A stretch of 64,000 nt of DNA from Candidatus Iainarchaeum sp. (GTDB lineage: Archaea; Iainarchaeota; Iainarchaeia; JAADDC01), in NCBI GenBank assembly GCA_030445695.1, contig JASUTF010000001.1:1-64000 (forward strand). Reading direction: 5' to 3'. Position 1 is the stretch's first letter. Every line of letters starts with the position of its first letter. The position numbers and the translations under genes were made by a program. This document shows, piece after piece, positions 52,560 to 57,614 of this stretch. The notes under the pieces were generated by a model. That model made no database searches. It had not been told where the DNA came from and worked only from the letters and a program-made list of their open reading frames with translations.

Positions 52560-54554
52560 TCAGAACGGCGGGCGGTATTTGCTCAGCGTTGCCGCGTTCA
52601 CTGCAACGATTACTGTGCTCAGGGACATCAGAAGGGCACCCACTGCTGGGCTGAGGACGATTCCGTAGTTGTAGAGTATACCTGCCGCCAGCGGAATGGC
52701 GACGATGTTGTACCCTGCAGCCCACCACAGGTTCTGGACCATCTTCGCGTAGGTTTTCTTCGAGAGGTCTATTATCTTCGCCACGTCCCTCGGGTCGTTT
52801 CTTACGAGGACGATGTCGGCGCTTTCTATGGCCACGTCGGTCCCCGCACCGATTGCAATGCCCACATCAGCTGTCACGAGCGCCGGTGCGTCGTTTACCC
52901 CGTCACCCACCATTGCTACCTTGTATCCTTTCTTCTGGAGTTCCTTTATCTTCTCCGCCTTCTGGTCAGGGAGCACCTCTGCGAAGTACCCGTCAATGCC
53001 CAGTTCTTTCGCCACCCACGCTGCCACGTCCTCTGCGTCGCCCGTGAGCATGTATACCTTCTTTCCCATGGACTTCAGTAGTTTCACCGCTTCCCTTGAT
53101 TCCTCGCGTACCCGGTCCGCCAGGGCGATGCTCCCCAGGTATTTCCCCTCTTCTGCCACGTGGATGACTGTCCTGCCCTTCACCCTTGCTTTTTCGGGAA
53201 TATCCACGCCGATTTCTTTCATCAGACGCTCGTTACCCACGTATATCTGTTTTCCTTTCACAACCCCTGTAATTCCCTTTCCGGGTATTGCACGGACATC
53301 CCGTGCTTCAGGGATGTTTATGCCCTGCGCACGTGCATGTTCCACCACTGCCTGTCCTATTACGTGCTCGGAACCCCTCTCAAGGGCCGCGGCGTAGCGA
53401 ATTACTTTTTCGTCCCCGAGTACGTCCACAACGCCGAACTTCCCTTCTGTGAGCGTGCCTGTTTTGTCGAACACCACTACGTCAACGTCCTTTACCGCCT
53501 CGAACGCCCTCCTGTTCCTTACCAGGACACCGTTCCTTGCGGATATCGCCGTGGATATGGCCACGACGAGGGGAATTGCCAGTCCGAGTGCGTGGGGGCA
53601 CGCTATAACGAGGACCGTCACCATTCGCTCCAGCGCGAACGCGGGCATACCCACTGCCGTCCAGTACGTGTATGTTGCTACGCCGGAGCCGAGGGCTACG
53701 TAGAACAGAAGCCCCGCCGCCCTGTTTGCAAGGTCCTGCGTTCTTGTCCTGCTCTGCTGTGCTTCCCGGACGATGCGCATCATCTGTGCAACGTAAGTGT
53801 CGTTCCCCGCCTTTGTTACCCTTACCTTGATTGCTGCGTGTCCGTTCACGGAGCCCCCGATTACTTCGTCACCATCCTTTTTGTGAACGGGTCTTGACTC
53901 GCCTGTGAGGAGCGATTCGTCAACGTGCGTCTCCCCCTCGATGATTACTCCGTCTGCAGGTATCTTCTCCCCGGGTTTTACCAGAACAACGTCCCCCGGT
54001 TTCAGTTCCGATGCGGGGACGTCCACCGTATGTTCTCCCCTCACGAGGTGTGCCGTTTTAGGTATGAGTTTCGCCAGTTCCTCCAGCGCCTTCGACGCCC
54101 CGCTTACGCTCTTCGCCTCAATCCAGTGGCCAAGGAGCATTACCACCACAAGCGTGGCCAGTTCCCAGAAGAAGTCCCTGCCCCCAAGGACAAATACGGA
54201 AAGGACAGAGTATATGAACGCCACGCTGATGGCCATAGCCACGAGCGTCATCATTCCCGGCTGTCTCTTCTTTACCTCGTCAACTGCACCGCGGAGGAAA
54301 GGCCAGCCACCGTATATGTATATCAGCGTGGCCAGTGCCGTCAGAATCTCCTTTCTAAATGCGAAATCAATGCTGAACCCGAACCACATCTGTATCATGT
54401 CAGATAGAAGCAGGACGGGTATCGTAAGGAGTAAGGACACGAAGAACCTGTCTCGGAACTCCTTCACGTGGTGAGCGTGGTCGTGCCCAGCATGAGCGTG
54501 ATGTTCGTGTATGTGCCCTTTCCCGTGCATGTGGCAGTGTTCCCTATGCTCCAT
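52560..54554 (-). CDS. copB: CopB-type heavy-metal P1B ATPase
   Basis: A 664-residue ATPase exporting copper or silver. The N terminus is histidine-rich (HGKGHIHEHHAHAGHDHAHH) with no CXXC ferredoxin domain, typical of CopB. The transmembrane metal motif is CPH (VIACPHALGLAIPLV), the actuator TGES, and the phosphorylation site DKTGTLTEGKFG. The last residues (NAATLSKYRPPF) end near nitroreductase. It heads the metal/thiol region. Confidence 0.93.
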   Translation of the reverse strand: MEHREHCHMHGKGHIHEHHAHAGHDHAHHVKEFRDRFFVSLLLTIPVLLLSDMIQMWFGFSIDFAFRKEILTALATLIYIYGGWPFLRGAVDEVKKRQPGMMTLVAMAISVAFIYSVLSVFVLGGRDFFWELATLVVVMLLGHWIEAKSVSGASKALEELAKLIPKTAHLVRGEHTVDVPASELKPGDVVLVKPGEKIPADGVIIEGETHVDESLLTGESRPVHKKDGDEVIGGSVNGHAAIKVRVTKAGNDTYVAQMMRIVREAQQSRTRTQDLANRAAGLLFYVALGSGVATYTYWTAVGMPAFALERMVTVLVIACPHALGLAIPLVVAISTAISARNGVLVRNRRAFEAVKDVDVVVFDKTGTLTEGKFGVVDVLGDEKVIRYAAALERGSEHVIGQAVVEHARAQGINIPEARDVRAIPGKGITGVVKGKQIYVGNERLMKEIGVDIPEKARVKGRTVIHVAEEGKYLGSIALADRVREESREAVKLLKSMGKKVYMLTGDAEDVAAWVAKELGIDGYFAEVLPDQKAEKIKELQKKGYKVAMVGDGVNDAPALVTADVGIAIGAGTDVAIESADIVLVRNDPRDVAKIIDLSKKTYAKMVQNLWWAAGYNIVAIPLAAGILYNYGIVLSPAVGALLMSLSTVIVAVNAATLSKYRPPF

Positions 54555-54603: not shown

Positions 54604-54699
54604 CTATTGCGAGTATAAATGTCCAAGTAGCGTCAGGAGGAAAAGGGGGCCGATAATCCGGCCCCACGTGCCCGTCGGGCAGCCAAACACATCCTCCAT
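54604..54699 (-). CDS. Candidate 31-residue membrane peptide
   Basis: The frame starts at an ATG overlapping the stop of the Met-rich gene (TGATG) and reads MEDVFGCPTGTWGRIIGPLF then LLTLLGHLYSQ, a short hydrophobic peptide. A GC-rich inverted repeat (GGGGCCG/CGGCCCC, 54646-54665) lies within it, which could instead be a terminator of the Met-rich transcript. Coupling favours translation, but the evidence is thin. Confidence 0.3.
   Translation of the reverse strand: MEDVFGCPTGTWGRIIGPLFLLTLLGHLYSQ
54646..54665. terminator. GC-rich inverted repeat after Met-rich gene
   Basis: GGGGCCG and CGGCCCC flank ATAATC. It lies downstream of the Met-rich gene and upstream of copB on the minus strand. 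It has no T-run directly after, so classification as a terminator is tentative. Confidence 0.3.
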
Positions 54700-55013
54700 C
54701 ACGAGCGCTCATCCTCTATAAGCGCGTGCATCGGGCACTCGAACCCCATCGCTTTTTCCATTGCCTCCATATGTTCTTCCATTATATCTCCGTATCCAGC
54801 CCTCTCCATGGCCTCGTGCATCTCCCGCATCTCTTCAACCATTACGTTGAAATCACCTCCCATCATCAGGGGCCCCATCATCATTCCAGGGCCCACCATC
54901 ATCGTCGGTGCCTGTCCGGCAGTTGCTGTGCCCATTCCCGCCGGCACGCCTCCAGTGTGTGCGGACGCGCCACCCATCATCAACGTGACCAGTAGGGGTA
55001 TTATGTTCCACAT
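54699..55013 (-). CDS. Exported methionine-rich putative copper-binding protein
   Basis: A 104-residue protein with a signal peptide (MWNIIPLLVTLMMGGASAH) and 21 methionines, dense in PTMMVGPGMMMGPLMMGG and then MVEEMREMHEAMERAGYG. Histidine/methionine clusters of this kind bind Cu(I) in known chaperones. It is upstream of copB on the same strand, supporting copper handling outside the membrane. No homologous family is recognised. Confidence 0.65.
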   Translation of the reverse strand: MWNIIPLLVTLMMGGASAHTGGVPAGMGTATAGQAPTMMVGPGMMMGPLMMGGDFNVMVEEMREMHEAMERAGYGDIMEEHMEAMEKAMGFECPMHALIEDERS

Positions 55014-55317: not shown

Positions 55318-55698
55318 TCACTTCAGCAGGACAACGTTCGTCATGCCCCTTCTTCTCCTCTCAACGAATCCGCGGGCCTCCAGTTTGTCCAGGATTCTGG
55401 ACACCTTGGACTTGGAGAACCCCGTTTTCTCCACTATGTCGCTCTGGAACATGACTCCCTCGTTCTCCTTGAGCAAGTCCACGATTGCCTTCTCGTCCTC
55501 CCCAAGTTTTGCACCGTCCACTGCGTAACCCTTCCCGGAGGGGCCCTTCAGGGCAAGGTACCCGCCGATACCAGCCATCAAGAGCGCCAGCGTAATTCCA
55601 ATGTATATATGAATGGGCAGCGTACCCCTGTGCGTGCAATAAACATCATGGAACTCTCCGCATGCCATCTCACAGGACTTGTTGGTTATATTGTACAC
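55318..55698 (-). CDS. Membrane-associated winged-helix transcription regulator
   Basis: A 126-residue protein with one N-terminal transmembrane helix (IYIGITLALLMAGIGGYLAL) and a C-terminal winged helix (VDLLKENEGVMFQSDIVEKT; SKVSRILDKLEARGFVERRR), as in archaeal COG2512-type membrane regulators. Several Cys residues (SCEMACGEFHDVYC) precede the helix and face outside; they may sense metal or redox state. GTG 55698 starts inside the small peptide gene upstream. Confidence 0.75.
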   Translation of the reverse strand: MYNITNKSCEMACGEFHDVYCTHRGTLPIHIYIGITLALLMAGIGGYLALKGPSGKGYAVDGAKLGEDEKAIVDLLKENEGVMFQSDIVEKTGFSKSKVSRILDKLEARGFVERRRRGMTNVVLLK

Positions 55699-55781
55699 TC
55701 CGCTGCGTATGCAGCCACGATGGTGAGGAAAATGACGCCCACGGCGGTAAGCACGTACCCCATTTCCCTGGTGAGGCGCAT
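55686..55781 (-). CDS. 31-residue membrane peptide upstream of regulator
   Basis: The minus strand from ATG 55781 reads MRLTREMGYVLTAVGVIFLT and IVAAYAAECTI, one transmembrane helix with an exterior Cys near the end. It overlaps the regulator start by 13 bases, which suggests translational coupling. Short, but its hydrophobic helix and clean ATG make a real peptide likely. Confidence 0.5.
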   Translation of the reverse strand: MRLTREMGYVLTAVGVIFLTIVAAYAAECTI

Positions 55782-55793
55782 GTATTAACGGTG

Positions 55794-56294
55794 TTACGAA
55801 CCTGTTAAAAGTATGGGTGCCCCCAACTGTGCGAGAATGCTCAGGATTATTAGTGTAAGCACGGTCAGAACTATTGTCTGACGTGGGAACAGTGCCCGCC
55901 TGTATTTCAGCAGGAGTTTCAGGCTTATTTTCGGCATTACATACGTCACAGCAGCCCCTACCACTATTCCTATTACCATTTTATCTATTCCAAATACCAT
56001 GTAACGCAGGTCCCCCAGGATGTCCGCCAGTTTAAGCCCGTAAACTGTCAGCGCTACCGCTGCTGCGGACAGAACCGCGTTCTGGTACGGGAACACCTGT
56101 TTCATCTTCCTCGCAGCTACCATTGTGGACGATACAACAACTGCTCCCACCCACAGGCCGAACACCATGTCGTCCAGTCCCAGGAACCTGCTGATTACGG
56201 CGCCCGTTCCCACGGCTGCGGTACAGAGGGGGCAGTGTGCGAGCGCACTGGGGATTGCCAGAGCCAGCACAAAAACAAGCAGGGTGCTGCGCAT
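55794..56294 (-). CDS. Membrane protein with exterior CPLC motif
   Basis: A 166-residue protein beginning with a signal-like segment (STLLVFVLALAIPSALA) followed by HCPLCTAAVGTGAVISRFLG. It then has four or five helices (FGLWVGAVVVSSTMVAARKM; VVGAAVTYVMP; IVLTVLTLIILSILAQLGA). HCPLC could be a metal or thiol-exchange site. No named family is recognised. Its ATG is 1 base after the stop of the LPGMVGGC peptide gene, so the two are coupled. Confidence 0.6.
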   Translation of the reverse strand: MRSTLLVFVLALAIPSALAHCPLCTAAVGTGAVISRFLGLDDMVFGLWVGAVVVSSTMVAARKMKQVFPYQNAVLSAAAVALTVYGLKLADILGDLRYMVFGIDKMVIGIVVGAAVTYVMPKISLKLLLKYRRALFPRQTIVLTVLTLIILSILAQLGAPILLTGS

Positions 56295-56295
56295 G

Positions 56296-56463
56296 TCAGC
56301 ACCCTCCGACCATTCCTGGAAGGTTGGTAAGCCTTTCTGCCACCGGCTGGGCAGAACTGCCCGCAACACTACTTATCCCAGTAATTGCCCAGGCCTGCAC
56401 GGCCATCAGCACCACGATTACCGCGAGCAGTCCTATAAGCACCAAGTATGTTTTGTTGTCCAT
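56296..56463 (-). CDS. Small anchored protein ending LPGMVGGC
   Basis: A 55-residue protein too short for routine callers. It starts at ATG 56463 (MDNKTYLVLIGLLAVIVVLM), crosses the membrane once and continues with a Ser/Ala linker to the C terminus LTNLPGMVGGC. The same last eight residues end the 234-residue protein encoded three genes upstream; the codons differ at five of eight positions, so the peptide is conserved at protein level. The terminal Cys should face outward. Function unknown; metal or thiol exchange is my guess. Confidence 0.65.
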   Translation of the reverse strand: MDNKTYLVLIGLLAVIVVLMAVQAWAITGISSVAGSSAQPVAERLTNLPGMVGGC

Positions 56464-56472
56464 CTTATCACC

Positions 56473-56916
56473 TCAGACACGCATGTACTCCTTTACATTC
56501 TCTCCCTTGACGGAGTATATTATGAACGGTCCAGTTTTTGGCCCTGGCATCCCGGGAGAGCCAGAGGGCATCCCCGGGAGCGCTATTACATCTACGTCTG
56601 GCATCTCTTCCAGCACCTTTTCTATCACTTCCACGGGAACGTGCCCCTCGATGATGTAGTCCCTGATTTTTGATGTGTGGCAACTCTGCAGGCCCTCTGG
56701 GATCTTCGCGGCGGTCTTCACTGACTCCATATTGGGCGTCTCTTTATACTCCACTTCGAATCCCCTCGCTTCAAGGTATTTTCCGTACTCAATGCAACAC
56801 TTGCACGTTTTTGAGTAATATAGTTCTACCACCCTTCCGCTGGCGTTCCTCGGGAACAGGAGGAGGGATATGGCGAGAATCCCCACCACCGCGAGCAGTA
56901 GTCGCCTCATCAGCAA
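56473..56916 (-). CDS. DUF411-family metal-binding protein
   Basis: A 147-residue exported protein. A signal/anchor helix (LLLAVVGILAISLLLF) precedes the DUF411 domain: VVELYYSKTCKCCIEYGKYL with a Cys-Cys pair, and the family's C-terminal LPGMPSGSPGMPGPKTGPF. DUF411 proteins are linked to copper/silver resistance loci. Start ATG 56916 overlaps the previous gene (56910) by seven bases. Confidence 0.85.
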   Translation of the reverse strand: MLMRRLLLAVVGILAISLLLFPRNASGRVVELYYSKTCKCCIEYGKYLEARGFEVEYKETPNMESVKTAAKIPEGLQSCHTSKIRDYIIEGHVPVEVIEKVLEEMPDVDVIALPGMPSGSPGMPGPKTGPFIIYSVKGENVKEYMRV

Positions 56917-57614
56917 CCACCCACCATTCCCGGCAGGGCGCTTATCTCAGAGGGGTCCTTCCCTGCCACCTGTGCAGCTAGGGCAACCATGGGCTTCGGG
57001 AAGAACAGCGCTTTCCATCTCAGGACTTCCCTGAGAATCTCTGCATCGCTGTAATCCGTGTCTTTTATGAGGGCCATTGTTAGTGCCTGGAGCGCGGGGT
57101 TGTGCTGGCACCCGCAGCGTAATTCGCCCGTCGGTGTGATGCCCACAGGCCCAACGCCACAGCAGAACTCACAACTTATTCCCACGGGCTTTGTAGCAAG
57201 GTTTAGGTATCTGTTCCACTTTTCAGGGTCTTTCTTTAGTTCTTCCTTGAGTTTGGAGTAGCTCCTGTAGAGGTAGTTGAGGGAGTTAACGGGGTCGTCG
57301 TAGGATATGGGGATTTTGTCAGCGTATTCTGGCGTCCCGCTCGGTATTATTGCGTTTGCAATCTCCAATTCGCTCCTTGCCGACTTCAGCTCAGGAAATA
57401 CGAGGAGCATGCTCATGGCCGTGGATGTTGACTTGCTCACATCCACGTTTGATATGTCCGTTTTACCCGAGAACCGCAGGATTTGGTTCCCCGTAAGCTT
57501 TGCATACGTTGTGAGGGTGACCGCCGTGCTGTATCCAGCCAGTATCGCGGCCACAGCAAGCAAACCTATAATTACCTTCTGCAAAGTGTCCCTGTCTGCC
57601 ATTGCGCCTGCCAT
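56910..57614 (-). CDS. Membrane-anchored Cys-rich protein ending LPGMVGGC
   Basis: A 234-residue protein with an N-terminal helix (LQKVIIGLLAVAAILAG), then an exterior domain with ISCEFCCGVGPVGITPTG and RCGCQHNPALQALTMAL, i.e. C-x2-CC and C-x-C followed by His, likely metal ligands. A conserved-looking DYSDAEILREVLRWKALFFP precedes the C terminus EISALPGMVGGC. ATG 57614 follows a minus-strand TATA (catatagcc, ~57637-57645). No named family. It heads an operon with DUF411, the 55-residue peptide and the CPLC membrane protein. Confidence 0.65.
   Translation of the reverse strand: MAGAMADRDTLQKVIIGLLAVAAILAGYSTAVTLTTYAKLTGNQILRFSGKTDISNVDVSKSTSTAMSMLLVFPELKSARSELEIANAIIPSGTPEYADKIPISYDDPVNSLNYLYRSYSKLKEELKKDPEKWNRYLNLATKPVGISCEFCCGVGPVGITPTGELRCGCQHNPALQALTMALIKDTDYSDAEILREVLRWKALFFPKPMVALAAQVAGKDPSEISALPGMVGGC

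Follow-up and report, generated by a model that had tools for sequence, protein, structure and literature searches.

Thioredoxin reductase, mercuric reductase and DsrC each have a flexible C-terminal arm, the Cys of which swings into a redox or metal site that in some cases belongs to another subunit. The gene pair described here, which encodes a larger Cys-rich protein and a small anchored peptide (hereafter, the large and the small protein) that both end in MVGGC, follows the same idea of a C-terminal Cys, with the difference that the arm is duplicated on a membrane-tethered peptide; to our knowledge, the large protein is related to none of these proteins by sequence or fold. PGF-CTERM (archaeosortase), GlyGly-CTERM (rhombosortase) and MYXO-CTERM (myxosortase) proteins likewise bear a short conserved motif near the C terminus, in some of them with GG or Cys, but there a helix and basic residues follow the motif and many proteins per genome bear it, paired with one sortase-like enzyme, whereas here the Cys is the last residue of the protein and the motif is confined to one dedicated pair. 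PCYCGC proteins (PF13798) are also anchored Cys/His proteins encoded near copper and DUF1573 genes, but lack the tail and show no profile relation to the large protein. Remote membership of that family is unsupported, as 0 of 41 large proteins matched the PF13798 profile at E ≤ 0.1 and hhalign gave a probability of 0.9%.

CuA-site assembly in bacteria by PCuAC, Sco1 and TlpA likewise involves a membrane-facing copper chaperone, a thiol reductase and a tie to a CuA cupredoxin. PCuAC holds the copper that it passes on at a C-terminal extension (PMC7558416), and TlpA reduces the CuA cysteines, a precedent for thioredoxin-like reduction (PMC6696091). By contrast, the large protein is helical, has a CxxCC..CxCxH centre and matches neither PCuAC nor Sco, and a second, tethered protein bears the same tail. 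CopG (DUF411), an extracytoplasmic copper protein with a Cys cluster and Met, uses CxCC and Met to hold a tetranuclear copper cluster (PMC7558416) and has a relative in the operon; the pair itself differs from CopG in family and fold class, and only the neighbouring gene is CopG-like. A search of open-access journal papers yielded nothing relevant on MVGGC, nor any function of the PCYCGC proteins. As judged from the libraries searched, the MVGGC pair is undescribed.

Two proteins with the same C terminus in one operon

Within the window (the whole 64,000-nt stretch of DNA that was analysed), the minus strand at positions 55318-57614 encodes the large protein, a DUF411 protein, the small protein, an HCPLC membrane protein and a membrane winged-helix protein, in that order (Table 1). 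The DUF411 gene sits between the two genes of the pair; its ATG (56910) overlaps the stop codon of the large gene as TGATG, and the HCPLC gene starts 1 nt past the stop codon of the small gene, so translation is probably coupled. Repeats and terminator-like structures in the DNA near the genes did not clearly exceed chance. Based on its sequence, which includes TCKCC and matches PF04214 (E = 5e-21) and PDB entry 6wis (E = 1.4e-17), the DUF411 protein is related to CopG. Between the winged-helix and P1B-ATPase genes, positions 54699-55013 encode a 104-aa Met-rich (MMVGPGMMMGPLMMGG), secreted-looking protein that is possibly another copper ligand.

Table 1. Features of the operon and its surroundings in the window
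Feature	Positions	Strand	Remarks
Large protein, 234 aa	56910..57614	-	N-terminal membrane helix at ~residues 8-41, helical domain, C-terminal LPGMVGGC
Cys/His motif of the large protein, C-x2-C-C...C-x-C-x-H			Invariant among relatives
Codons of C148, C151, C152, C167, C169 and H171	57102..57173	-	Invariant in 41/41 full-length and 66/66 domain sequences aligned
Tail codons of the large protein, LPGMVGGC and stop	56910..56936	-	
DUF411/CopG-family protein	56473..56910	-	CxCC and LPGMPxGSPGMPG motifs
Small protein, 55 aa	56296..56463	-	N-terminal membrane helix, flexible linker, C-terminal LPGMVGGC
Tail codons of the small protein, LPGMVGGC and stop	56296..56322	-	
			
HCPLC membrane protein	55794..56294	-	No Pfam family
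Membrane-anchored winged-helix regulator (DUF7343/MarR-like)	55318..55698	-	PF24034, E = 1.5e-18
P1B-type heavy-metal ATPase, near the operon	52560..54554	-	His-rich N terminus

The preliminary description had noted that two adjacent proteins, of 234 and 55 aa, end in the same octapeptide, that five of its eight codons differ synonymously and that the tail is therefore selected at the protein level. All three points hold. The pattern ATGGTNGGNGGNTGYTRR is found at these two sites only in the 664-kb genome (0 in the reversed control), and the tail codons, CTG CCG GGA ATG GTG GGT GGT TGC TGA in the large gene and CTT CCA GGA ATG GTC GGA GGG TGC TGA in the small gene, differ synonymously at five of eight positions. 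Across loci, the two tails have 1.84 of 4 synonymous choices in common, compared to 1.36 for shuffled partners, which indicates that their identity is kept at the protein level. Chance and recent copying are ruled out by these codon differences together with the genome-wide counts given below.

Both proteins are anchored by an N-terminal helix, with the tail at the far end and no helix after it, as had been described. In the large protein, the single N-terminal helix is followed by a helical domain in which, besides the residues listed in Table 1, W200, K201 and P206 are invariant among 41 full-length sequences; in a broader alignment of 66 domain sequences, the five Cys, the His and the Pro stay invariant. 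The last 170 residues hold exactly six Cys in proteins with the tail and five in those without it. Past its membrane helix, the small protein has a Cys at the last residue only (in the window, this is its sole Cys), at the end of an S/G/A-rich linker with a median length of 43 aa. We infer from the positive-inside rule, with clear support in the large protein and weak support in the small one, that both proteins are oriented outward.

AlphaFold2 predicted the whole large protein with a mean pLDDT of 92 and its domain as all-helical (pLDDT = 94.5, pTM = 0.89), with no strands of three or more residues and with a tail that is predicted to be ordered (pLDDT ~87 for the tail block). No relative by sequence or fold was found in Pfam, NCBIfam or PDB: the best Foldseek hits against PDB had E values of 2.0 (whole protein) and 3.9 (domain), and VIA-align of the domain yielded no Z ≥ 2. 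The large protein had no Pfam match to the Sco and TlpA thioredoxin-fold chaperones, whose alpha/beta fold its helical model lacks, or to PCuAC, which has a beta-rich domain with a Met/His copper site. Among seven families compared by hhalign, its Cys region was closest to CcmH (PF03918; E = 0.0034, probability 9.5%, from four CcmH sequences only); as the large protein had no Pfam match to CcmH, which has a three-helix CxxC domain, and no fold match in PDB, this suggestive resemblance is a lead only.

Distribution and co-variation of the tail

Relatives of the large protein were identified in 13 of 55 related genomes and at 44 loci of a GTDB-wide collection that span Woesearchaeota, Aenigmatarchaeota, a Diapherotrites MAG, Micrarchaeum, Nanohaloarchaea, Patescibacteria/Peregrinibacteria and one member of the Desulfobacterales. 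By phylum, they occur in 102 of 371 genomes in a Woesearchaeota-type phylum (that of genome G087) and in 14 of 379 genomes in a CPR-type phylum (that of G098), and are essentially absent (1/247) from the phylum of the Desulfobacterales. Many of these genomes are MAGs and the bacterial assignments are based on contigs; the 14 CPR genomes make them credible, while the Desulfobacterales case is single. A viral origin was rejected, as no relative was found among IMG/VR contigs, and so was a defence system, as PADLOC gave no match to the pair.

The tail is nearly invariant across the 146 non-redundant large genes from DPANN archaea, CPR and the one Desulfobacterales contig, and is present on 122 of them. 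Next to nearly every relative lies a gene for a short protein (53-156 aa) that contains a membrane helix and ends in the same way; the 55-residue frame, the conservation of which had been in question, is real and conserved. Among 122 tailed large and 140 small sequences, the constant portion is MVGGC, with C at position -1 and G at -3 invariant and G at -2, V at -4 and M at -5 each 97-98% constant; LP, located two residues further inward, is common without being universal. A role of LP as a thioredoxin docking site is unsupported, because loci without LP, such as L220, also have thioredoxin neighbours.

The tail is also specific. In the phylum of the window, the pattern occurs in 18 of 87 genomes, and in 16 of these it is present exactly twice, at adjacent genes (0 in the reversed control). 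Among 270 genomes of the Woesearchaeota-type phylum, MVGGC followed by a stop codon occurs in 74 as 166 copies, mostly in adjacent pairs, compared to 3 copies in the reversed control. All 74 tail-bearing genomes also carry the large gene (Fisher p = 7e-65, phylogeny ignored), 194 genomes have neither and none has the tail alone. The two that have the large gene and lack the exact pattern show variant tails: the two proteins of G116 end in LPGQVGGC and LPKQVGGC, and the large protein of G181 ends in LPSIVGEC. With one to four tails per genome, on the same families each time and mostly adjacent, the tail is absent from unrelated proteins, and the random occurrence that would have spoken against the preliminary description was not found. 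These results identify a real, selected and dedicated two-protein module.

Loss of the tail from the large protein further revealed that it is interchangeable between the partners. Each of the 24 tail-less large proteins, with ends such as ..NLASNKYRGIEN and ..VKRIVQELQA, has a tailed small gene nearby, downstream in 20 cases and upstream in L188, L189, L190 and L191. On an IQ-TREE tree of 142 domains, nine changes in the presence of the tail were reconstructed, a rough count given the few alignment columns, of which at least six are forced by supported branches. In the opposite direction, L057, L167 and L183 have a tailed large protein with no small protein found in reach, so the small protein is not strictly required. 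Every examined locus with enough flank carries at least one tail, bearing in mind that small genes were partly recognised by the tail and that tail-less small proteins could escape the counts. The tails of the partners also co-vary: when the large protein has P at -7, so does the small one (80/80 pairs, compared to 14/39 when the large protein lacks P), and the residue at -5 is concordant in 120 of 120 pairs (118 M/M and 2 Q/Q), in both cases with phylogeny ignored.

Individual loci showed further variation. A tail-less large homologue at L192 (positions 1483-2211) lacks the first Cys of CGC (SGSCAH), and its small partner ends in LPKQVGGC. A second type of small protein (L135, L142-L144, L147, L169 and others) has the motif D[TM]S-x-W[TS]..EKM.YE.HG..PAR before the MVGGC tail, and the same motif was found in the large-protein linker of L010 and L011. 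On the Desulfobacterales contig (L057, 5038-6453), an FKBP-type prolyl isomerase-like part, assigned to this family by eye, is fused before a tailed large domain, and no small gene was found nearby. At L015 (3669-5027), L153, L189 (796-2196) and L235 (3757-4995), the large domain is fused behind a multi-helix membrane domain with CPxC, as if a membrane metal carrier fed it.

Copper and thiol neighbours

Using profiles built from the neighbours, we counted genes around the pair at 45 loci of at least 9 kb. A membrane winged-helix protein was found at 26 of these loci, a triple-thioredoxin membrane protein at 25 (always on the same strand and close to the pair), DsbD_TM at 25, HCPLC at 19, a CuA-type cupredoxin at 18, a P1B-ATPase at 16, DUF411 at 15, a thioredoxin-like protein (c7) at 12 and PCYCGC at 4, with true PCYCGC members adjoining the pair in L053, L219, L220 and L226. 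Nearly all of the long loci have copper or thiol genes, consistent with the metal/thiol context initially proposed for the window; the sole locus without any profiled neighbour is that of the Desulfobacterales, counted twice among the 45 (L057 and L214). Co-occurrence with DUF411 and HCPLC, which had been anticipated, proved frequent, but the only obligate partnership is that of the large and the small gene themselves. None of the 45 loci shares a constant third gene with all others, as the window and many others lack the triple thioredoxin and others lack HCPLC or DUF411. Elsewhere in the window, the neighbour profiles had no match.

The link to CuA-type cupredoxins extends to whole genomes, 55 of 102 with the large gene (54%) compared to 40 of 269 others (15%) having one at E ≤ 1e-20 (p = 1.5e-13, phylogeny ignored). 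Conversely, about half of the genomes with the large gene have no stringent match, so CuA maturation could not be the sole role of the pair. DPANN of oxygen-deficient zones have been reported to carry a 'nosZ-like' cupredoxin with CuA, the function of which is unproven (PMC10936187), and the CuA motif suggests that the pair-associated cupredoxin belongs to the same family.

Other families adjoin the pair more sporadically. One secreted family (cluster c20; L010, L011 and L013) contains a CC...C-x-HG-x-A segment and may be distantly analogous to the large domain. In L025, L031, L044, L029, L041 and L220, short lipoproteins with an internal GGCGV motif adjoin the small gene.

Possible roles of the tail

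Our tentative reading, to which we give somewhat less than an even chance, is that the pair forms a dedicated extracytoplasmic module for handling copper(I) or thiols, with MVGGC as a mobile arm acting in cis or in trans. The large protein would act as a receiver domain anchored in the membrane, in which the five Cys and the His may form a soft-metal or redox centre, and MVGGC would serve this centre as a mobile C-terminal thiol (and Met) arm that supplies a sixth Cys. The arm would be delivered in cis by the large protein's own C terminus or in trans by the small protein, which may be little more than an arm on a ~40-residue tether. It could then act as a relay for Cu(I) or for reducing equivalents that links the large protein with DUF411/CopG, the CuA cupredoxin or the triple thioredoxin/DsbD; both the docking of the tail on the Cys/His site and the direction of transfer are what we infer. 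By analogy, its mode of action probably resembles that of the C-terminal extension with which PCuAC carries copper, or that of other thiol arms at C termini. A mobile arm is in keeping with a sixth Cys that is available in cis or in trans, a small protein that resembles a tether, the co-variation of the tails and the neighbours. A docking or metal-transfer tail, one of the initial proposals, is compatible with all findings, while the other, a thiol anchor, became less likely, since an N-terminal membrane helix already anchors each protein and one dedicated pair, rather than many surface proteins, bears the tail.

A broader form of the mobile-arm reading, which we regard as possible but doubtful, is that MVGGC represents an undescribed two-protein principle, a Met-Cys arm carrying copper or electrons in cis and in trans, and a copper-site assembly pathway of DPANN and CPR. 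The large domain would then be a new fold with Cys and His, the trans arm would sit on a separate membrane-tethered peptide, and the pathway would stand in for Sco/PCuAC, maturing CuA ('nosZ-like') cupredoxins among others.

Co-variation of the two tails would also be expected if they were a docking code, that is, a ligand for a third protein common to both partners, which would bring the pair together and enter into a mixed disulfide with the Cys. Candidates for this third protein are the triple-thioredoxin protein, the HCPLC membrane protein and DUF411, and the first is encoded close to the pair on the same strand at 25 of the 45 long loci. However, no linked third gene is constant across these loci and the large gene alone accompanies the tail throughout, which makes this explanation unlikely.

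A metal-free thiol-disulfide relay, in which the tail Cys would shuttle between DsbD/triple thioredoxin and the Cys cluster of the large protein for oxidative folding or reductive repair, accounts for DsbD_TM (25/45), the triple thioredoxin (25/45) and the c7 protein (12/45) and accords with the weak CcmH resemblance (hhalign E = 0.0034, probability 9.5%, four sequences). We consider it improbable, because many loci, including the window, have copper genes with no thioredoxin or DsbD in reach and because DUF411/CopG, the P1B-ATPase and the CuA cupredoxin indicate copper.

An archaeosortase-like signal is ruled out on anatomy, as all tails end at Cys with no helix or basic residues after them. 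More generally, a processing or anchoring signal, with MVGGC read by a sortase-like enzyme that would attach a lipid to the C-terminal Cys, cross-link it or cleave it, is very improbable: a short, nearly invariant motif on otherwise unrelated proteins does resemble a sorting signal, and lipid anchoring of archaeosortase substrates has been reported in archaea (PMC7157517), but each genome has two (at most four) tailed proteins of the same, mostly adjacent families, both already have a membrane helix, several large proteins dropped the tail yet retain that helix, and no enzyme gene is constant beside the pair at the 45 long loci.

Whichever role applies, the tail, which many tiny-genome archaea and some bacteria carry, stands out in DPANN genomes as an unusually clean signal at the protein level that lacks an explanation: five C-terminal residues mark a single gene pair in two domains of life, and its proteins belong to no known family or fold. 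Its context suggests a new way of passing copper or thiols around outside the cell, and an arm that occurs both in cis and in trans makes protein logic open to a simple test. Should the copper reading be true, DPANN and CPR, the metabolism of which rests largely on guesswork, would gain a concrete pathway for copper or thiols, and the pair would provide an assembly factor for the 'nosZ-like' CuA cupredoxins, whose function is unproven (PMC10936187).

Finally, we made two observations on the PCYCGC family. In Desulfobacterota (L196, L202, L203, L206-L208, L210 and L211), PCYCGC genes contain an in-frame TGA, which in the genes inspected lies just 5' of the later CxxC position and probably encodes selenocysteine. 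In L197/L247, a CcmH-like Cys domain, DUF1573 and PCYCGC are combined in one protein, and all three families also adjoin the pair.
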